Below are positions 113 to 29,492 of a stretch of 37,427 nucleotides of DNA, piece by piece. Position numbers and translations under genes: made by a program. The DNA is from a virus. The notes below the pieces were generated by a model. It ran no database searches. It saw only the letters and a program-made list of their open reading frames with translations, and had not been told where the DNA came from. The DNA lies in the IMG/VR virus record IMGVR_UViG_3300022723_000022, positions 1 to 37,427 of that record; one strand, written 5' to 3'. Each line of letters starts with the position of its first letter. The stretch's first letter is position 1.

Positions 113-457
113 TCAGTGCTCTGAGGAATGGAGAACCTCCAGGGCGGCCGCACCCATGATGCGGATATCCGCAGGGACGAGGAGGTCCCTGCGGTCGGTC
201 GCCGCGAGGGCGACCATGCGGGACACGATATACCGTGTCCCGTCGACTGGGGCCGGCAGACCCTCGACCTGCCCGAGGGTCTGTCGGATGATCGGAACGG
301 GCCCGTGGGCCCATCCCGTTGACCCGATGACCTCGGTGGAGGCGGCCACGCGGGCCACCCCCACCGAGGGGATGGGCTCGTGCAACACGAGGTCATTCCC
401 GTCGGCTGGCGTCCCGTATAGGTGTACGGGATGTGGGGTTAGATTGACTAATTTCAT
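113..457 (-). CDS. Conserved hypothetical phage protein (NLTPHP type)
   Basis: A 114-residue protein that begins MKLVNLTPHPVHLYG. Openings of the form NLTPHPV followed by a PS.G.ARV stretch, a GLP.P..GT.YIVS stretch and a late DLLVPAD stretch are, as I recall, common in small phage hypothetical proteins of unknown function; no catalytic motif is visible. The start at 457 is chosen over longer in-frame options because a strong Shine-Dalgarno (GGGGGGAGG) lies 5 nt upstream, and the upstream in-frame sequence is just the antisense-like reading of the Cys-repeat gene. Its ATG overlaps the stop of the preceding minus-strand gene (ATGA), so the two are probably translationally coupled. Base composition is visibly more GC-rich than the rest of the window, which suggests transfer. 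Existence is confident; function unknown. Confidence 0.75.
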   Translation of the reverse strand: MKLVNLTPHPVHLYGTPADGNDLVLHEPIPSVGVARVAASTEVIGSTGWAHGPVPIIRQTLGQVEGLPAPVDGTRYIVSRMVALAATDRRDLLVPADIRIMGAAALEVLHSSEH

Positions 458-768
458 GATGACCTCCCCCCTTGGAGAGTGCACGAATTGCACTCGTTGC
501 AGTCCCAACAGGAACTGCACGAGGTGCACGAATTGCACTCGATACACATCGCGCACTCGAGGCACGATGTGCACCTCGTGCAACGGGTGCAATTTGTGCA
601 TCCGTTGCACGAGGTGCACCCGTTGCAACGGATGCAATCCTTGCACCCGTTGCAATTGATGCAATTGATGCAATCGGTGCAATCCGTGAGGGATTCCAAG
701 GCGGCTTTCGCCACCGCCTCGGAGCCGAAGTATTCAACTTCGGCGACATTTCCGAATTTGTCTCTCAT
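454..768 (-). CDS. Cysteine-triplet repeat protein, (XXC)23
   Basis: A 104-residue protein. Residues 1-29 form an ordinary acidic, probably helical segment (MRDKFGNVAEVEYFG...). From Cys30 to Cys96 every third residue is cysteine, 23 in all, in XXC units such as TDC, INC, NGC, TSC and NSC, with the spacer positions rich in Thr, Asn, Ser, Asp, Gly and Arg. An eight-residue tail follows. The DNA shows the same 9-nt period around TGC. The start is fixed by a perfect AAGGAGGT site before ATG 768. A strict three-residue period could stack cysteines on one face of a small beta-solenoid, or bind metal; this is inference and I know of no proven function. A shorter CxxC zinc-ribbon explanation fits poorly because there are too many regular repeats. 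The gene is coupled to the downstream NLTPHP gene by a 4-bp overlap. Confidence 0.75.
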   Translation of the reverse strand: MRDKFGNVAEVEYFGSEAVAKAALESLTDCTDCINCINCNGCKDCIRCNGCTSCNGCTNCTRCTRCTSCLECAMCIECNSCTSCSSCWDCNECNSCTLQGGRSS

Positions 769-1015
769 ATGACCTCCTTGATGCGTGTATCCTATGCGTT
801 GTTTTGCGATGCAAAGGGTTTTTTCTGTGTTTATTTGCAACATTTAGCGTTGAGATATGCAACGTTGATGCGTTGATTCGTTGATATTTGCAACGGCGAG
901 CAAAAGAGGTACGGGCAAAGATGTAATTGTGCAACGATTAGAAGAGGTGTCGTTGCTGCGTTGCTGGGTTGTTGGCCAGAATTAAAACTTTTATTCATTA
1001 AAAATCGCAATTAAA

Positions 1016-1085
1016 CATCGAAACGACGAAGCAACGCAGCAAATAAATAATGTTTAATTTGTTAAGGTGTTTCGTCGTTTCGATG
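1016..1085. repeat. 15-bp perfect inverted repeat around an AT-rich core
   Basis: The left arm CATCGAAACGACGAA at 1016-1030 is the exact reverse complement of TTCGTCGTTTCGATG at 1071-1085. The 40-nt spacer contains the AT-rich stretch AAATAAATAATGTTTAATTT. The arms belong to the TTCGTCG word family that fills 1016-1260. The element could be an origin hairpin, a protein-binding palindrome or a cruciform. It lacks a T-run, so it is not an obvious terminator. Confidence 0.6.
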
Positions 1086-1160
1086 CTTCGTCGTGTCGTC
1101 GTGTCAATGTTATAAGATGTTTCGCCGTGTCGCCGTGTCAATGCTTCGTTGTTTCGTTGT

Positions 1161-1237
1161 TTCGTTATAGGTAATTTGTTAAGGTGTTTCGTCGATGCGT
1201 TGCTTCGTTATAGGTAATTTGTTAAGGTGTTTCGTCG
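1161..1237. repeat. Tandem direct repeat, 34-bp identity with 43-bp period
   Basis: A 34-bp word beginning TTCGTTATAGGTAATTTG and ending GTTTCGTCG occurs at 1161-1194 and again at 1204-1237. A shorter 22-bp version (AATTTGTTAAGG followed by TGTTTCGTCG) occurs at 1056-1077, overlapping the right arm of the inverted repeat. Three copies spaced by 117 and 43 bp look like iterons or binding sites for a phage protein. Confidence 0.65.
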
Positions 1238-1380
1238 TGTCGATGTTATAAATAAACAACGGGGGGAGGGGTTCGGTGATATTTTATACACTGTATGTAA
1301 TAGTAACCGCAAGCAAATTTTTCGCGCCAAATTTTCAACTTTTCCGGCGTTTACATCTGCGATCTTGCACTTATGCAACT

Positions 1381-1397
1381 TTCGTCAGAAAATACAC
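1381..1397. repeat. 17-bp direct repeat, partner at 1595-1611
   Basis: TTCGTCAGAAAATACAC at 1381-1397 recurs as TTCGTCAGAAAATATAC at 1595-1611, 16 of 17 identical. The copies flank the candidate rightward promoter at 1469-1496 at about 70 and 100 bp. They may be operator-like sites. They have no dyad of their own that I can see. Confidence 0.45.
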
Positions 1398-1468
1398 TTT
1401 CTGGCACCCATATATACCCCCCACCTGGGCCTCCGGTTGCCGTTGCAAAGGTGGTTAGTTAACGGGTG

Positions 1469-1496
1469 TTAACAAAGGCCCAAAAATCCTTATTAT
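1469..1496 (+). promoter_or_regulatory. Candidate sigma70-type promoter, rightward
   Basis: TTAACA at 1469-1474 and TATTAT at 1491-1496 are separated by 16 nt. Each matches the consensus at 5 of 6 positions. It would start transcription near 1503, giving a leader of roughly 330 nt before the sulfotransferase-like gene, and it is the best rightward promoter candidate upstream of the plus-strand operon. Confidence 0.35.
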
Positions 1497-1835
1497 ATAG
1501 GTTCTCAAAAGAGTAATTCTTGACGAAGGCCACCTCCCGTCTCCTAACCCCCCGTCGCAGCGCCGCTTACGACCCCGCAACCCCCTAATACCGCTTCGTC
1601 AGAAAATATACATGGCCGATATCCGGCAGGTCCACGCTAGTGGCCTAGTAGCTGGTTGCGACTGAGACTCAACTGCAATGCGGGATCACGTAATCGGGGG
1701 TGCGCGATTCCGAAACCGGACCTAGCCAGTACGGATTCGGCCAGACCAAAAGTATAATTATTGACGATTGCATAAGTGCAACATCAGCCGTGTATATTTG
1801 CAAGATGCGTATAAACAATTTGCTTTCCACAGACA

Positions 1836-2330
1836 GTGAGATATTATGTACGTATGTTGTTAATATGCGCAATGCCTAAAACAGGCACATCATCAATCAT
1901 CGAAGCATACCGCATGCAAGGTTACAATGCCTACCATGTACGATGGAAAGACCTCGCAGCGTTGACACAACGCGACAGAGTAGACTTTCTAATGCAATTT
2001 GACGTCGTAGCAGAGTGGTATGGTTTCGTAGACTTTTCGAAAATGATCGAAGCAACGAATCATCGAATCATCGTTGAACGTGAAAAGTCGTCATGGCATG
2101 AAAGTTGCGAGAAATGGTTTAGACCATCCGCAAATCCGATTGTGAGAGACGCACGTAAAATACGCTTCGGTTGTACATCTTACAACAGTGAAAGATTCGA
2201 TGCGTTCTATAATAGGTACAAAGCAGCCGAACAAACACTGAACAACCCCCGTATTAGTTTTCCACCATGTTGGAGTAAACTGGGGCTTCGCTCGAATGAA
2301 CCTTTTCCACACCTGAAAGGACCACGATGA
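1836..2330 (+). CDS. Sulfotransferase-like P-loop protein
   Basis: A 164-residue protein resembling the bacterial/eukaryotic PAPS-dependent sulfotransferase fold. After a short hydrophobic strand comes MPKTGTSSI (residues 13-21), matching the 5'-phosphosulfate-binding P-loop pattern (PKTGTTS). Residues 78-90 (IIVEREKSSWHES) match the 3'-phosphate-binding R...S segment. The C terminus NEPFPHL resembles the closing PFP of this family. It is shorter than typical members (about 220-300 residues), so it may be a minimal or trimmed form. The coordinates use a GTG start; ATG 1854, just before MLLICAMPKTG, is equally plausible and neither has a clear Shine-Dalgarno. Its stop overlaps the next start (ATGA). 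The substrate is unknown; a host surface glycan or small molecule is possible. Confidence 0.65.
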   Translation: MRYYVRMLLICAMPKTGTSSIIEAYRMQGYNAYHVRWKDLAALTQRDRVDFLMQFDVVAEWYGFVDFSKMIEATNHRIIVEREKSSWHESCEKWFRPSANPIVRDARKIRFGCTSYNSERFDAFYNRYKAAEQTLNNPRISFPPCWSKLGLRSNEPFPHLKGPR

Positions 2331-4254: not shown

Positions 4255-5848
4255 TATGTTGAAAGAAATGTGTCATAAGCAAGCGTTAAAAGTAGACGCT
4301 AGACATATGTCACTACTGGAATGGTCATTGGAGTATTGTGATCACTTTATATTTCGCGAACCTTCCGAGTTATTCCACGTTCCACTTTGTTCTATCATGG
4401 ACAATCTTAAAGGTGGAGATAACACACTGGTCATCTGCCCCCGTGGCTACGCGAAAAGCACATGGTCGCAGATAGGAATTATGCGTGACATCTGTGAGTT
4501 ACGTGAGCGATATATCCTTTTGATCATGGATACTACCGAGCAGGCGACGCAAAGTTTGAAAACTATTCGCGAAGAATTGGAGTCAAACCAGAAACTTAAA
4601 GCAACATACGGTGATCGCATCGCCAAAGGGTTGGTTTGGAACAACAATGAGATCATTACTAAAGCGGGCATCTGTGTGCAGGCTCTTGGTACTGGCAAGG
4701 GTATTCGTGGACGAAGATTCCGTCAGCATCGCCCGACGAAGATCGTCCTTGATGACCCACAGAACGACGAGAGCGTCGAAACAGCGGGACAACGAGACAA
4801 GGACTGGCGCTGGGTAACTAAAGCCCTGCTGCCTTGTGGTGAAACAGGTATCACTAAGGTATTTATTATTGGTACGGTACTTCATAAAGAGTGTATTGTA
4901 TGTAAGTGTGAGCGTTTGCCTTCATTCAAGACCATTAAATATCAGGCTCTTGTCGAGTGGCCTAAGAATATGGACATGTGGAATGAATGGCGAGATATTT
5001 ACCTAAACTCTCCCATTGAGAAACACGACGGAGCACTGGTACGTAGTAGAGTTCGTGCCAATGAGTATTACGATACCTATAGAGAGAAGATGGATGAGGG
5101 TGCTATATTACTTTGGCCACAGAAAGAGACGCTTGAAGACTTGATGTGTCAATGGGCAGAGGATGAAGCATCATTTCTGTCTGAGAAACAGAACCAATCC
5201 TTTAATCCGGAGCTTTGTGAGTTCGATCCGGCATGGTTTAGTGAGTCTCGTACCAGTATTTGGTACGATGATGTGGCTGAAATCAATAAAAAACCACATA
5301 TTTCAGTAGGATTTGTGGACTGGTCTAAGGGAAAACAAACTAAAAAAGACGACTATACAGCTGTAATTATTCTACACTACGACGGTACACGCGCGTATGT
5401 AGAGGCTGATATTCAGAAAAATCCTGTTAATATCACTGTTGAACACATCATTGAGTGGCATAAAGTGGTGGGATTTGAGGCATTCGGGTGTGAAATGCAG
5501 GGGTTTCAGTTCCTTGCTAAGGAAGATATTGAGGCTGAAGTAGAGAAACAGAACCTATACTTCCCTATTACACCTATTGAAAATGGCAATACGAAGAAAG
5601 AAGTACGCATCGCCCGTCTTGCAAATTGGTTTAAGCGTGGGTTCTTTGTGTTTCATAAGCATTGTCGTCATACTCAGATGTTGTTAGATCAGATTCTGGA
5701 CTTTCCAGGTAGATCACACGACGATGGGCCGGATGCTCTTGAGGGTGCATTGCGTATTCTGTGGATGGTACTACAGGAACAGGGTACGGGTGGTATTGGT
5801 GGAGGATACGAAGGTGATGTGGAAGAAACAGTAGGTTATATAAATTGA
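4235..5848 (+). CDS. terL: Terminase large subunit
   Basis: A 537-residue packaging motor. The ATPase domain has a Walker A-like CPRGYAKST (about 68-76), the adenine-proximal LLIMDTTEQA segment, a Walker B KIVLDD (169-174) and a coupling motif IIGTVLHKE (211-219). The C-terminal RNase H-type nuclease has its acidic residues at Asp362 (GFVDWS), Glu420 (GCEMQ) and the SHDDGPDALEG cluster near 495-503. All expected motifs are intact and the length is normal. The protein would cleave concatemers and pump DNA through the portal. The start at 4235 follows CGGAGG, inside the end of the upstream gene. It defines the late operon. Confidence 0.93.
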   Translation: MIPSIGDMLKEMCHKQALKVDARHMSLLEWSLEYCDHFIFREPSELFHVPLCSIMDNLKGGDNTLVICPRGYAKSTWSQIGIMRDICELRERYILLIMDTTEQATQSLKTIREELESNQKLKATYGDRIAKGLVWNNNEIITKAGICVQALGTGKGIRGRRFRQHRPTKIVLDDPQNDESVETAGQRDKDWRWVTKALLPCGETGITKVFIIGTVLHKECIVCKCERLPSFKTIKYQALVEWPKNMDMWNEWRDIYLNSPIEKHDGALVRSRVRANEYYDTYREKMDEGAILLWPQKETLEDLMCQWAEDEASFLSEKQNQSFNPELCEFDPAWFSESRTSIWYDDVAEINKKPHISVGFVDWSKGKQTKKDDYTAVIILHYDGTRAYVEADIQKNPVNITVEHIIEWHKVVGFEAFGCEMQGFQFLAKEDIEAEVEKQNLYFPITPIENGNTKKEVRIARLANWFKRGFFVFHKHCRHTQMLLDQILDFPGRSHDDGPDALEGALRILWMVLQEQGTGGIGGGYEGDVEETVGYIN

Positions 5849-5895
5849 TCTTGACAGAGAGAGGTACATGGTACTCTACAATTTTGGAGGGATCT

Positions 5896-6180
5896 ATGTC
5901 AAGCGTGCCGGGGCCTTGGTCTAAAGCGGCAACCATCGCAGCGGTTGTCGCATGTATGGTTTCTGTTATTCCAGGCTTGATAGCATTTGGTTCTGTTCAA
6001 AGTAATGTATCATCAAACACGCTACTTATGCGTGAGAACATGAAGAAGATTGATACACTACGTGGCGAAATCATATCCGTACAGTTAATGACAACCGAAT
6101 TAAAAACCACAGTCAAAGAACTTCGCGAAACCAACGACGGACTACGCGAAGTCATCAACCTTTTAATGCAGCAAAAGTGA
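5896..6180 (+). CDS. Small membrane protein with coiled coil
   Basis: A 94-residue protein. Residues 11-34 form one hydrophobic membrane segment (AATIAAVVACMVSVIPGLIAF). The rest is a charged helical, probably coiled-coil, tail (LRGEIISVQLMTTELKTTVKELR...). ATG 5896 is chosen for its GGAGGGATCT ribosome site. The longer in-frame start at 5845 has none. It sits between terL and portal with a terminator directly after. A holin-like, antiholin-like or envelope-anchored role is possible; it could also be a structural accessory. I do not recognise a named family. Confidence 0.6.
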   Translation: MSSVPGPWSKAATIAAVVACMVSVIPGLIAFGSVQSNVSSNTLLMRENMKKIDTLRGEIISVQLMTTELKTTVKELRETNDGLREVINLLMQQK

Positions 6181-6219
6181 TGAGGGTTTCGGCTCCCTTA
6201 CCTCAGGTGTGATGCTGCG

Positions 6220-6244
6220 GCTCCCGTTTCGGCGGGAGCTTTTT
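6220..6244 (+). terminator. Intrinsic terminator before portal
   Basis: A 7-bp stem GCTCCCG/CGGGAGC (6220-6226 with 6233-6239) closes a TTTCGG loop and is followed by five Ts (6240-6244). It lies between the small membrane gene and the portal gene. It may attenuate rather than end late transcription, since the genes on both sides run the same way. The terminator at 25999-26027 has the same TTTCGG loop. Confidence 0.75.
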
Positions 6245-6257
6245 AGGAACAAAAGAT

Positions 6258-7826
6258 ATGCTAGACGAACTTGAAAAGTATGCCTTCAATGTCGCAAAGG
6301 ACCTATACGAGTCCACGTTTGGCATCGGTGCAGAAGCCGCAGAACGTGTCGATAACAAAGACGAGAACTTCGATCTTTGGTTGAGCGTTACTCTCGGCGC
6401 GTTTCGTACCCTACGACCTAGACTACATGAGCTTCGTGAAATTATTCAAGCTTCGCGTGGTATGCACGTAGCATCGGAGATATATAAGAACGCTCTGTGG
6501 CATCGACGGAACTTTATTCTCGGTGAGTTTATTTCCTTCGATCTACTGCCGAGTGATGATAGCCTGAGCATTGATGAAATGATTGGACAGTTGCGCGAGG
6601 ATGAAACTCTGCGCAGAGTCCACAGAAAGTGGATGTCCTTTTGGCGTAAGAACAATATGTATAGGCGGTTGAACTCTTGGTTTGAGAAGACCGAGCGTGA
6701 TGGAACGTCTTACATTCGTTTGTTCCCTGGAGATGGTGATGCTCCGCCAACTGTTCGTTTTGTTGATGCACTCACTATCAAAGGGGACATGGTTGAAGCA
6801 GGCCAAGAACTACCCGACCCTATTAGAGTTGCTGGAACTACTCCTGACAGTCTTGGTATTGTTACTGATAATGATGATATTGAGACTATTCTTGGGTATA
6901 TTCTAAGTCAAGACCTACCAACAAATGGACTAGCCCGTGCAACTTTTGTTGATGAAAGTGAAATCATTCAGCAGAAGATCATGACTGACTACGATACGTT
7001 GGTCGGTCTTCCAAGAATGTACGCTGCTTTTACTAATATCCGTAGAGCTGAGAAACTTCTAGTCAACTCTTCTGTGCTTACACAGATTCAGACGGCAATC
7101 GCCATGATTCGTAAGCATGAAGTTAATAATGGTGCTGCTGTCAGTAGGTTTGCCGATCGAAACAGTACGGGCAGTAGACAAGATAAAGTAACTGGTAAGA
7201 CTGTACGTACCAAGCGGTATGGTCCCGGTACTATTCTCGATGCGAAGGCCGGTACTGATTACGATTTCCCCGCACATAGGTTGGATCCTTCCAAGTGGAC
7301 CAGCCCTATGCATGAGGAATTGGCGCGAGTCGCAGCATGTGCAATGGTTCCTGTTGATTGGTTATTGTCGAAGGAAATTAGCGAACCACTAAACCCCGGC
7401 TCTCCGTTTCTACGGAACTTCAAACAGGAGCGGAGACTTTATTATAGTACATACGAGGAATTGTTTTGGCGTACTATGAGTATGATGGGTGAGAACGTTG
7501 ACCAACTACAGTTGGATTACGACCTTTGTATTGAAGGTCCTGTTATTCCTACTGCCAAACCTTTGGATCAAGCTCGTATCGATGACATCTATGTTAAACA
7601 TAGCGCCAAGAGTCCGCAGCAGATCGCAAGAGAGAATGGTACTAGGTACACTGTAATGCGCGCAGAGATTCTTGCACATCGCGAGACTAAGCAAGATGAC
7701 GAACAATTCCCTGGTGATGCAGGGATGACCAACGTTAATAACAATGGTACCACAAATTCTGACGGTGAAAGCACATCGGATGGTGGTACTCGACAGTCAG
7801 CCGGTGACGGTGGAGACACACGATGA
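6258..7826 (+). CDS. Portal protein
   Basis: A 522-residue protein, of normal portal length, directly after terminase. It has an N-terminal helical, charged region, then (residues about 220-400) a typical portal layout: an IIQQKIMTDYDTLVG segment, a long helical stem region (RRAEKLLVNSSVLTQIQTAIAM), and a WTSPMHEELARVAACAMVPVDWLLSKE stretch like the clip and wing of phage portals. The last 50 residues are a disordered Asn/Gly/Thr-rich tail. The dodecameric ring through which DNA enters and leaves is the expected role. The start at 6258 follows AGGAAC. Family assignment rests on context and overall pattern, not on a short catalytic motif. The stop overlaps the next ATG. Confidence 0.78.
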   Translation: MLDELEKYAFNVAKDLYESTFGIGAEAAERVDNKDENFDLWLSVTLGAFRTLRPRLHELREIIQASRGMHVASEIYKNALWHRRNFILGEFISFDLLPSDDSLSIDEMIGQLREDETLRRVHRKWMSFWRKNNMYRRLNSWFEKTERDGTSYIRLFPGDGDAPPTVRFVDALTIKGDMVEAGQELPDPIRVAGTTPDSLGIVTDNDDIETILGYILSQDLPTNGLARATFVDESEIIQQKIMTDYDTLVGLPRMYAAFTNIRRAEKLLVNSSVLTQIQTAIAMIRKHEVNNGAAVSRFADRNSTGSRQDKVTGKTVRTKRYGPGTILDAKAGTDYDFPAHRLDPSKWTSPMHEELARVAACAMVPVDWLLSKEISEPLNPGSPFLRNFKQERRLYYSTYEELFWRTMSMMGENVDQLQLDYDLCIEGPVIPTAKPLDQARIDDIYVKHSAKSPQQIARENGTRYTVMRAEILAHRETKQDDEQFPGDAGMTNVNNNGTTNSDGESTSDGGTRQSAGDGGDTR

Positions 7827-26032: not shown

Positions 26033-28144
26033 ATGGCTTTAACAGGTAATGTTGATGTAGCTTTTGATGTTGATATTGTGATGGACGCGGATCCTGGGGG
26101 TGTAGCCACGGTTACGTTTACTCCACCTGACGGTATCACTATTAATAGCGGTAGCCCCATGACATTTAATAGTGGTAACTTTTCCACACCACAACAGTTA
26201 AACGTAACTGGAAGTAGTGTATCTACTTTCAGTATAGACTATGATATCAATACTGACTGGAGTATTGAACCCCGCACTGGTAGTTTCATTGTTACTATCA
26301 CTGAAGCTGCAACTACTGTAGATCCTGATTCTCCATGTGGCCCTATTCCTACGGTTACAATCGCGCCAGAAGACGGCTCAATCTTGATGATCTATGATCG
26401 TCAACCTACCACACCACTAGGTACTTTTGAGGATGACACTCGCCCAGGTAGTGCTTCAAATCCAAGCCATGTTTGTGGTAGTGTCCCTACTATTACGGTA
26501 CTGCCTGCGTTGAGCGCACAAAATCTGCCTAGTTATGCGCCAGCTTTCGATCAAGGTAACGAACCAGCATACTTTGGTGCTGCTCCCCCAAGTATTAACA
26601 AAGATTCCGTATACTATAAGAATTGGGTTCGCCGTAGAGAGTGGATGGATGGTAGTGATTGCTCAGATGACGCGGAGTTTCCCGGCACTCCATCTAGTAC
26701 ATTTACTGATCTACAACATGAGGAAAATAAAATCATCAACAGACTGAATCTGCCTGGAGGTAGAGTAGGCTCGGCCATTACTTATGACGCAGGATTTGGT
26801 CCGTTCAAAATAGTCGCAACCTTGTCTGGGTGTGTTGAGGTAGATGCAATCTTTGAGGAAATACTAGACAACGTCTCAACTCAATTCACACATGCGGATA
26901 ATGTCACACTACATGTAGGTATATTTGAAAGAGACACCTCAACACTACTTATGGATATTGGTTCTATAAGTGTACCTACAGTTCAAGGTGCTAAAGATTC
27001 TCAGGCGGACTCCACCATATCTGCTATCAAATTAGACAACGTTACACCGTTTGAATTGCTTAATCCAGACATCACAGTTCCGTGGACTGTTGGAGTATAC
27101 GCTACAGGGTTCGACTACTCACCATCGTTCCCACCCCCGTGGCCTAGCGCCGGTCCCGACACAGGAATGGACCCTCCAAACACTACACAGTCTTTGGAGA
27201 GATTGGAGTTAATCAATAGAACTATCAACCGTCGAGTATATGACCCTATACTCGACGCCCTTGAGGATCAAACGGGATCAGAACAACTCTTTGATGTTGA
27301 GGTTGAGGTTCTTACCGCACAAGGTGAGGAGTGTCGTCCAGTATTTGAGTTGGAGCTAGGTGAGACTCTTACCGACAAGAGTATACTTGGCGATCAATGG
27401 CATGACCCTATAACGGGGGAGGAGCTGTATACTGTAAGGTTTAAGTTGGATCTAGGAGTCCTTTATGTAGGGAATATGAGGTTTCTAAACTCCAGTGTTT
27501 TCGGATCTAATCCCTCAAATTCATTTACACTACGAGCATTCCGTAACGATGACTTCACAGATCAAATTGGATCTGATATTGTTAAAAGTAATCACTCCTC
27601 CGCAGTAATACCAATTGAGTTCGATGACGCTGCAGACTCACAACAGTTTGTGTATTGTGAATACGAATCCAATACCAAACCTCCCACCAACTCCAACCAC
27701 GGTATGAAACCTGTAGGAGAGTACAGAGAGGGTAGCGATCCTAGTAATCCATCGTCCGTAGTACTAACCGATATGCAAACAAATTGGCACGATGAGAATG
27801 GGTGGATGTACTTCTCTATAGTTGTAATTGAAGGGGATTACGATATAGGTACTGAAGCTGCTGATGTATCCCCTGGAGGCGACGTTGACACCCTAATGGA
27901 GTATTACGGCACCGACTCTACATACTCTACGTTGGTTTCATCCGACGATAATAGTGGGCCAGCTCCGGCATACTCTCAACTACCCACTATTAACATTAAT
28001 GCTGGACAGGTGGGACAAGCACACTACTTCAGAGTTCGAGATAAAAATAATAACCGAGATTCAGACTATAGGTGGCAGCTCACTTTTAGTTTTACCCCTC
28101 CTACCCAGACAGGTGGCGGTACAACAGGTGGCGGTACTACATAA
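26033..28144 (+). CDS. Putative tail fibre / surface protein
   Basis: A 703-residue protein, last of the late operon. The N terminus (1-95) looks Ig-like/beta-sandwich (VATVTFTPPDGITINSG, TGSFIVTITEAATTV). The remainder is Asp/Ser/Pro-rich beta and helix with no known motif, ending in repeats of GGGTT. It may be a receptor-binding or baseplate appendage. Its stop overlaps the opposing gene by 8 bp. Confidence 0.55.
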   Translation: MALTGNVDVAFDVDIVMDADPGGVATVTFTPPDGITINSGSPMTFNSGNFSTPQQLNVTGSSVSTFSIDYDINTDWSIEPRTGSFIVTITEAATTVDPDSPCGPIPTVTIAPEDGSILMIYDRQPTTPLGTFEDDTRPGSASNPSHVCGSVPTITVLPALSAQNLPSYAPAFDQGNEPAYFGAAPPSINKDSVYYKNWVRRREWMDGSDCSDDAEFPGTPSSTFTDLQHEENKIINRLNLPGGRVGSAITYDAGFGPFKIVATLSGCVEVDAIFEEILDNVSTQFTHADNVTLHVGIFERDTSTLLMDIGSISVPTVQGAKDSQADSTISAIKLDNVTPFELLNPDITVPWTVGVYATGFDYSPSFPPPWPSAGPDTGMDPPNTTQSLERLELINRTINRRVYDPILDALEDQTGSEQLFDVEVEVLTAQGEECRPVFELELGETLTDKSILGDQWHDPITGEELYTVRFKLDLGVLYVGNMRFLNSSVFGSNPSNSFTLRAFRNDDFTDQIGSDIVKSNHSSAVIPIEFDDAADSQQFVYCEYESNTKPPTNSNHGMKPVGEYREGSDPSNPSSVVLTDMQTNWHDENGWMYFSIVVIEGDYDIGTEAADVSPGGDVDTLMEYYGTDSTYSTLVSSDDNSGPAPAYSQLPTININAGQVGQAHYFRVRDKNNNRDSDYRWQLTFSFTPPTQTGGGTTGGGTT

Positions 28145-29492
28145 AACGATTCCAATACTTATGTGTCGGATCGTCGTATAATACCACCCTCTCCCGTACG
28201 TCATAAGTCTTACATAGATTGTCGATACCCTGGTCCTGTCGGATCAGGGTATCTTTTTTGAACGCTCTAACCTTGTCGTCAATGCTACGACGATATTCAC
28301 CAACACCTTGAGTGCAACTCCATCCGAAAACATTGATTCTGCTGTACCCCATATACAATAGTAGGTTCAACATCCAATCACCACTGAAATGTTTGGTAAC
28401 AATAAAAGGTAGTGTCTCAAAATTACCTTCTTGGTATAGATGATAGACGTTAGGTCGATCTACGTACCCATCGCATCCAACGATGCAGGTATGTGCCCAC
28501 TCTTTATCGTTGTCGAAATTCTTGGTAAAAGATGTTGTGTCTACGTAGAAGCTACCATACACAAGCATACCAATATCACCAAGCTTGCGTCGCCATTCGT
28601 TGCATACCCATAGGTCGGACACGGTAGCCAGCTCAAGCGCCTCCATGCGCCTTTGAGACGTCAGAGACGGGCCGTAGAGCAGCATCGTGGCCTCTCGATC
28701 CTTCCGACTGTCTCTCAGATCGGAGGCCGGCTTTCGGCGGTATACCTTACCACCCTGTTGTAGTGTTTGCACATGCTTATGTATGGACTTGTTGCGTATA
28801 CGTGACCAATTTAGAAAGTCTTCACGCTGACCAATTCTAATAGCATGATTGATAGCATTGATCTGTTGCTGCGACGATGCGTCTTTTTTACTGAAGACAC
28901 CTTTAAACGGAGTATGTAAGAACTTATCATTGAAAGGAAGGTAAACCAACTTCTTGTTCATCAACGCTGCCCAATACCCACCATGGTATGACGATGAGAC
29001 GATGAGTTTATGTTTCCGGAGAAAGTTCACCACCTCTTCAAAAGACATTTCGTTATGTGCATACGCATTAAAGGGTGCAGCCTTCTTATTCTCATATGTA
29101 CCAATGTATGTGTTGCTACCTTCGGGGGTTGTGCGTATTTGGAAAGCGGGATCCATACAACTTACACAAGGCACGCAATAGTATCCTTGTATGTCTTCTC
29201 TCGGCGCGAAGATTGTAGACATCTTTTCCCACGCATCGTAGAAACGTTGATGCGTCCCACCTGCACCCCAGACAACAACAGACACCCCCGTTTTACGGCA
29301 CGTCTCAAGCACTCTTGTCATTTGTAGCACAGCACCACCACCAACTATAATCAACCCAACGTCGTCTGGTACTCCATCAAATCTGTTCGCAGGGATATGT
29401 ATTGTCTCGCCCAGATCGAAGTAGTCTGACGGGCAGCTTTTCTTATCTCCCACATTATTCATGTGTTTCCAGTTAATCAATGCTGTCTTCAT
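28137..29492 (-). CDS. Pyruvyltransferase-like two-domain enzyme
   Basis: A 451-residue protein. Residues 1-240 look like the polysaccharide pyruvyl transferase fold: NNVGD near the start (12-16), LIIVGGGAVL (47-56), VPCVSCMDPAF (107-117) and SSSYHGGYWAALMNKKLV (166-183), with His170 in the family's conserved H. Residues about 265-451 form a second domain starting LLYGPSLTSQ (271-280), resembling the GpSL-type glycosyltransferase/Maf-like folds. It could modify glycans of the host or of virion proteins, but the substrate is unknown. AGAGGAAAGAG precedes the ATG. It is the final gene of the leftward operon. Confidence 0.6.
   Translation of the reverse strand: MKTALINWKHMNNVGDKKSCPSDYFDLGETIHIPANRFDGVPDDVGLIIVGGGAVLQMTRVLETCRKTGVSVVVWGAGGTHQRFYDAWEKMSTIFAPREDIQGYYCVPCVSCMDPAFQIRTTPEGSNTYIGTYENKKAAPFNAYAHNEMSFEEVVNFLRKHKLIVSSSYHGGYWAALMNKKLVYLPFNDKFLHTPFKGVFSKKDASSQQQINAINHAIRIGQREDFLNWSRIRNKSIHKHVQTLQQGGKVYRRKPASDLRDSRKDREATMLLYGPSLTSQRRMEALELATVSDLWVCNEWRRKLGDIGMLVYGSFYVDTTSFTKNFDNDKEWAHTCIVGCDGYVDRPNVYHLYQEGNFETLPFIVTKHFSGDWMLNLLLYMGYSRINVFGWSCTQGVGEYRRSIDDKVRAFKKDTLIRQDQGIDNLCKTYDVRERVVLYDDPTHKYWNRFM
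28224..28259 (+). terminator. Late-operon terminator inside the opposite gene
   Basis: A perfect 9-bp stem GATACCCTG/CAGGGTATC (28224-28232 with 28245-28253), with a possible TCC/GGA extension in its 12-nt loop, is followed by six Ts (28254-28259). It stops plus-strand transcription about 80 nt past the last late gene. It lies within the C-terminal coding part of the minus-strand gene at 28137-29492. Confidence 0.85.

Follow-up and report, generated by a model that had tools for sequence, protein, structure and literature searches.

A widespread phage protein family with cysteine at every third residue, tentatively read as a solenoid that exchanges with pentapeptide repeats

Pentapeptide-repeat proteins of phages (phrog_31265 and PF00805) are built from a five-residue unit, A(D/N)Lxx, without regular cysteines. 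Another repeat protein, rich in cysteine, is the insect antifreeze protein of Tenebrio molitor (1ezg), which we take to be a beta-helix of 12-residue coils whose inward positions fall on every third residue, half of them being disulfide-bonded cysteines. Arrays with cysteine at exactly every third residue, (Cxx)n, also exist in cultured phages: two such proteins of Campylobacter phage vB_CcoM-IBB_35 (AEI88196.1 and AEF56835.1) were deposited as hypothetical, and the word cysteine is absent from the genome paper of this phage (PMC3322345). Here we describe a (Cxx)n protein encoded in a 37,427-nt stretch of viral DNA (IMG/VR record IMGVR_UViG_3300022723_000022, positions 1 to 37,427), hereafter called the window, together with its relatives.

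The window, a contig of a tailed phage, has genes for terminase, portal, tape measure and DNA polymerase, and its minus strand carries Pam3-like proteins, MazG and an MCM-like protein. The features of the cysteine-array locus are collected in Table 1. The protein (MRDKFGNVAEVEYFGSEAVAKAALESLTDC...CTLQGGRSS) has 23 cysteines, C30, C33 and so on to C96, and none elsewhere. The exact three-residue spacing claimed in a preliminary description, made from the DNA letters, is thus correct at 23 of 23 positions of the minus-strand ORF. The same description had noted a strong ribosome site, which is present, and a 9-nt period in the coding DNA, which agrees with the tandem repeats (units of 9, 18, 27 and 45 nt) detected over positions 512-684. 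The array cysteines are encoded by 21 TGC and two TGT codons. When the whole window was simulated 60 times with a first-order Markov model, the longest run of cysteine at every third position in any frame was 2-4. Because the array DNA is full of the palindrome TGCA, several further long open frames overlap the array, one of them on the plus strand and containing a run of (Cxx)10; the plus-strand frame at the position of the ORF is interrupted. Homology of the N-terminus and the ribosome site indicate that the minus-strand frame 768-454 is the coding frame. A check of frame conservation set beforehand favoured a gene as well, since frame and spacing are kept in at least 127 other proteins. We conclude that the minus-strand ORF is a real gene.

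Table 1. Coordinates of features at the cysteine-array locus, numbered along the window
Feature	Positions	Strand	Description	Basis
Cysteine-array protein CDS	454..768	minus	104 aa; ATG at 768; coding part 768..457; stop TGA at 456..454	sequence and family homology
N-terminal cap domain (putative), residues 1-29	682..768	minus	predicted short strands plus helices	family alignment and AlphaFold2 model
(Cxx)22C array, residues 30-96	481..681	minus	23 Cys; putative surface residues mostly T/I/N, then D/N/G/R/S/E	sequence
Tail TLQGGRSS	457..480	minus	8 residues, without the C-terminal domain of most relatives	sequence and family comparison
Ribosome-binding site	772..779	minus	AAGGAGGT, 3 nt before the ATG at 768	sequence
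Downstream gene MKLVNLTPH...	113..457	minus	114 aa; phrog_21731 / phrog_30542, phage family of unknown function	
Region without evident gene	769..1835		about 1 kb, between the minus-strand cysteine gene and the first plus-strand gene (1836); 8-nt-periodic repeats	

We then investigated the relatives of this protein. It has no Pfam match even at E 10, plain tblastn against 50,697 phages returned nothing, and a related-locus search with it confirmed nothing. These searches probably failed through masking of the low-complexity array, and degenerate DNA patterns were used in their place. A pattern of 12 spaced cysteine codons was run on viral contigs, and among the matches listed were many with a common N-domain. 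This pattern alone also brought up many unrelated or antisense repeats, so counts were restricted to hits with the N-domain. A second pattern, combining the N-domain with four spaced cysteines, gave at least 119 stretches in viral contigs and 11 in prokaryote genomes, the latter nearly all from Alphaproteobacteria, with one from a Patescibacteria MAG. At least 128 proteins were extracted, including that of the window, so that the N-domain (about 29 residues) and the array recur in at least 127 others, mostly in phages and prophages of Alphaproteobacteria. Among 385 sampled genomes from the class of Kaistia, one besides the centre had a match, suggesting that the family is mainly phage-borne. 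As judged from these sequences, the (Cxx)n family is widespread in phages and common in environmental ones. Several phages (L040, L141, L168, L012 and L077) carry more than one paralogous (Cxx)n gene, the N-domain being the same and the arrays different.

The profile phrog_15341, of unknown function, matches the window protein with E 5.1e-14 (residues 16-96 against profile positions 22-103) and a relative, L109, with E 2.7e-21. The match to the window protein spans both the N-domain and the array. The earlier statement that no characterised family could be named therefore stands as far as function is concerned, whereas a catalogued family does exist. In an alignment of 78 sequences, variation is absent or nearly absent at the N-domain positions N7, G15, A20, A23, L24 and L27 and at most of the array cysteines.

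At the C-terminus of most relatives is a domain marked by the motif WHTC..THCRAGW, found in 70 of 93 complete relatives by a regular expression that misses a few diverged copies. The domain corresponds to part of phrog_31265, a profile whose positions 1-150 are pentapeptide-like and match such proteins generally, while the common domain lies at about 149-252. Searched alone, the domain has 356 relatives in viral contigs. Among the best 80 of the 356, a (Cxx)n array lies ahead of the domain in 35, and pentapeptide repeats occur in 29 by regular expression, or in 34 with five read by eye. L298, which represents the pentapeptide group with this C-terminal domain, is recognised by PF00805 at E 3.6e-45. 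The window protein, which falls into no Pfam family, has neither the A(D/N)Lxx unit of PF00805 nor the WHTC..THCRAGW domain, and ends 8 residues after its array. Across the relatives, (Cxx)n arrays and pentapeptide solenoids thus hold the same place before one C-terminal domain, and for this reason we read (Cxx)n as a solenoid. The common domain points to the same shape for both repeat types without proving it.

Other C-terminal domains also follow (Cxx)n arrays, namely a phrog_20532-like domain (QV.CGCF.GTL) and one with the pattern GPFRSDG.QF...AGCR.F (L043, L062, L109, L202 and L232). In Flavobacterium phage FL-1 (L243, 2494-3198 and 2606-2950), a (Cxx)n protein with a C-terminal domain of the WHTC..THCRAGW type overlaps a deposited CDS (26567-26911) that is annotated in a different frame. 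The C-terminal domain continues in another frame, indicating a frameshift in the record.

Unbroken arrays across the family contain 6 to 53 cysteines, and of the 70 complete members that have the main C-terminal domain, 67 keep the three-residue phase without a break. Array length is thus free and phase is fixed, as expected of a stackable structural unit. Of the 2827 triplets in family arrays, 2250 (80%) have Ser directly after the cysteine, and 97% have one of D, G, R, Y, N, S and H as the next residue. The numbers of cysteines in the arrays show no preference modulo 2-6. A 12-residue coil register (four triplets) was sought and is not supported, the lag-4 autocorrelation signal having vanished after removal of internal duplications. 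In Ser-rich relatives such as L128, the array DNA is homogenised as TGC TCG NRC, despite mixed codons in the N-domain of the same gene. Comparing similar arrays of the same length in 12 pairs, we counted 153 non-synonymous changes at the variable residue and only 14 synonymous changes in all. These patterns suggest concerted evolution with reshuffling of array units. In two metagenomic contigs, L128 (gene at 5707-6414, minus) and L226 (4163-4870, plus), the gene has identical flanks, of 4162 bp on its upstream side and 942 bp on its downstream side, and three bases differ inside the array, all of them in a pair of neighbouring variable codons (D,D to Y,R). The altered stretch is also present elsewhere in the same array; the difference stems either from gene conversion among units or from faulty assembly.

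We then investigated the genetic setting of the gene. The start codon of the downstream MKLVNLTPH... gene and the stop codon of the cysteine gene overlap in ATGA, suggesting translational coupling. By a regular-expression search, this NLTPH neighbour is absent near other members of the (Cxx)n family. The cysteine gene is the first minus-strand gene after the region without evident gene; in a circular or permuted genome, it and the downstream gene might stand at the head of a minus-strand early operon. The cysteine gene adjoins early phage genes in the window, and its neighbours across the family are early-type genes of DNA recombination and replication, as assigned by eye from sequence. Production early in infection, as the preliminary description had proposed, is plausible in its timing from this gene context. 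A fixed operon partner was sought across the family and none was found; a comparison with anti-phage defence families gave no match, and the terminase revealed no close relatives of the window phage. Between the divergent genes, positions 860-1260 contain 8-nt-periodic repeats (CGTTGATG, TTCGTCGT and TTCGTTGT) as well as direct repeats of 43 and 51 nt, possibly an origin or a regulatory array. Elsewhere in the window, weak Pfam matches to polysaccharide pyruvyl transferase and sulfotransferase at 28137-29492 (minus) and 1836-2330 (plus) are odd company for replication and packaging genes.

The structure of the window protein was predicted by AlphaFold2 with 78 family sequences. The best model (mean pLDDT 79, pTM 0.62) has a helical N-cap near pLDDT 90 and a beta-bridge at nearly every array cysteine; the remaining four of the five models have mean pLDDT values of 55-61. 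For a longer relative (L097), AlphaFold gave confident N- and C-terminal domains and left most of the array unstructured, with pLDDT below 50. Foldseek found no significant PDB match for the window model and nothing significant for the L097 model. The top match by a second structural aligner was the Tenebrio antifreeze protein, with a Z of 5.4 (4.0 A over 74 residues) that may reflect only a common arrangement, and the family profile searched against the PDB also reached 1ezg, at an E of 0.00098 that is partly due to composition. The antifreeze protein is probably contained in the AlphaFold training data, and the match may therefore reflect the memory of the predictor. We take it to suggest geometric plausibility rather than common descent, and the likeness is best read as convergent. 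Of the two ideas in the preliminary description, a small beta-solenoid with a cysteine ladder is the better supported, by the domain exchange and by the beta-bridges of the best model, which is one model of five; the other, a redox or metal sink, is possible.

The best-supported explanation for these observations is a capped, cysteine-lined solenoid rod with a variable surface, which would bind a partner as pentapeptide-repeat proteins do. From the sequences, the models and the analogy, we judge the chances of this explanation to be about even. Residues 1-29 would form the N-terminal cap, and (Cxx)22C would fold as a narrow parallel beta-solenoid, with the cysteines at every third position turned inward and the two residues between them on the surface. 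The rigid rod would then show its variable surface residues to a partner macromolecule, in the manner of pentapeptide-repeat solenoids. DNA mimicry, as in MfpA, was dropped as the default role because the window array is near neutral, with six acidic and four basic residues. A further-reaching version, which we regard as rather doubtful, is a solenoid whose core consists of thiols throughout: as many as 50 cysteines would be stacked facing inward in a tube that is stable in the reducing cytosol and is empty or encloses a one-dimensional thiolate-metal chain, and recombination among units would reshuffle the variable surface residue of each triplet.

The main rival to the solenoid rod is a metal-thiolate protein, in which a flexible or disordered array would wrap Zn, Cu or Fe-S through overlapping CxxC motifs and act as a metallothionein-like sink or buffer during infection. 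We consider this possible, as a minority reading. CxxC and CxxCxxC are classic metal-binding motifs, and cysteine makes up 22% of the window protein. The unstructured array in the L097 model is in line with such a protein, as are zinc-finger-chain matches in a PDB sequence search, which are weak and non-significant. However, an exact three-residue phase over up to 53 cysteines exceeds the needs of a metal sink, and metallothioneins are irregular, with CxC, CC and CxxC. The lack of a Pfam hit also argues against this rival; in NCBIfam, the only match of the window protein was TIGR03601 (12.1 bits), which places it outside the metallothionein sequence family. Moreover, the common C-terminal domain is found equally on pentapeptide solenoids without a cysteine array. 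The likeness to the Tenebrio protein, the closest structural match, in which the disulfides presumably lie inside the 12-residue coil, would also suit a secreted or post-lysis beta-helix that is disulfide-bonded and folds only on oxidation. Since nothing like a signal peptide is seen in the N-terminal sequence (MRDKFGNV...), the protein should remain in the reducing cytosol until lysis, and we give such a helix a slim chance.

The repetitive coding DNA raises another explanation, that DNA slippage gave rise to the array and the product is disordered, of low complexity and of little functional value; the 9-nt units of relatives are homogenised and may be exchanged by gene conversion. The N-domain, however, is conserved with many synonymous codon differences, which makes a worthless slippage product unlikely, and its chances are slimmer again in view of a cysteine phase conserved over at least 128 proteins, a consensus ribosome site and C-terminal domains that stay in frame. 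The least probable reading, in our estimate, is a RiPP precursor whose N-domain would be a leader and whose cysteine-rich array would be cyclised to heterocycles or thioethers. The window protein has in common with the TIGR03601 (heterocycloanthracin/sonorensin) precursors a repeated cysteine-rich segment (a weak match, E 0.24), and Campylobacter phage IBB_35, with its two family members, also has several genes annotated as radical SAM. Nevertheless, the TIGR03601 score is far under the cut-off of 35 bits, and the window contains no YcaO and no radical-SAM gene. Among 40 records with family members, some of which may be fragments, YcaO occurs in none and radical SAM above cut-off in one. Most complete members also have a folded C-terminal domain after the array, unlike a core peptide.

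The sequence family is thus already catalogued and uncharacterised, and our literature searches found no description of a (Cxx)n repeat class, or of one that appears to stand in for pentapeptide solenoids. The family is frequent in environmental phages and yet listed under unknown function in databases. Few known protein repeats would be simpler than one with a period of three and an invariant cysteine. A tube lined by the thiols, if that is the structure, would lend itself naturally as a scaffold to ordered chemistry of metals or sulfur. Compared with phrog_15341, the protein of the window is short and ends without a C-terminal domain; its array is T/I/N-rich and less uniform than the Ser-rich arrays of relatives. 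The two proteins of phage IBB_35, which were found via a structure library of viral proteins and then in the phage genome, have a similar, diverged N-domain (DGYYIDSNNNKWD...), and their longest (Cxx)n runs contain 45 and 9 cysteines. The Tenebrio antifreeze protein resembles the window protein in its cysteine-rich array and probably in having an inward residue at every third position. Unlike in the window array, its cysteines fall mostly on every sixth position and are disulfide-bonded, and it has a TCT ice-binding face; the window array contains no TCT triplets and hence no such face. A further parallel is with the pentapeptide-repeat phage proteins of phrog_31265 and PF00805, which have the same C-terminal domain as most (Cxx)n relatives. 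Both groups would consist of an N-terminal cap, a repeat solenoid and a C-terminal domain, with surface pairs of S/R followed by G/D, and the exchange between them provides a concrete structural hypothesis for the (Cxx)n array.
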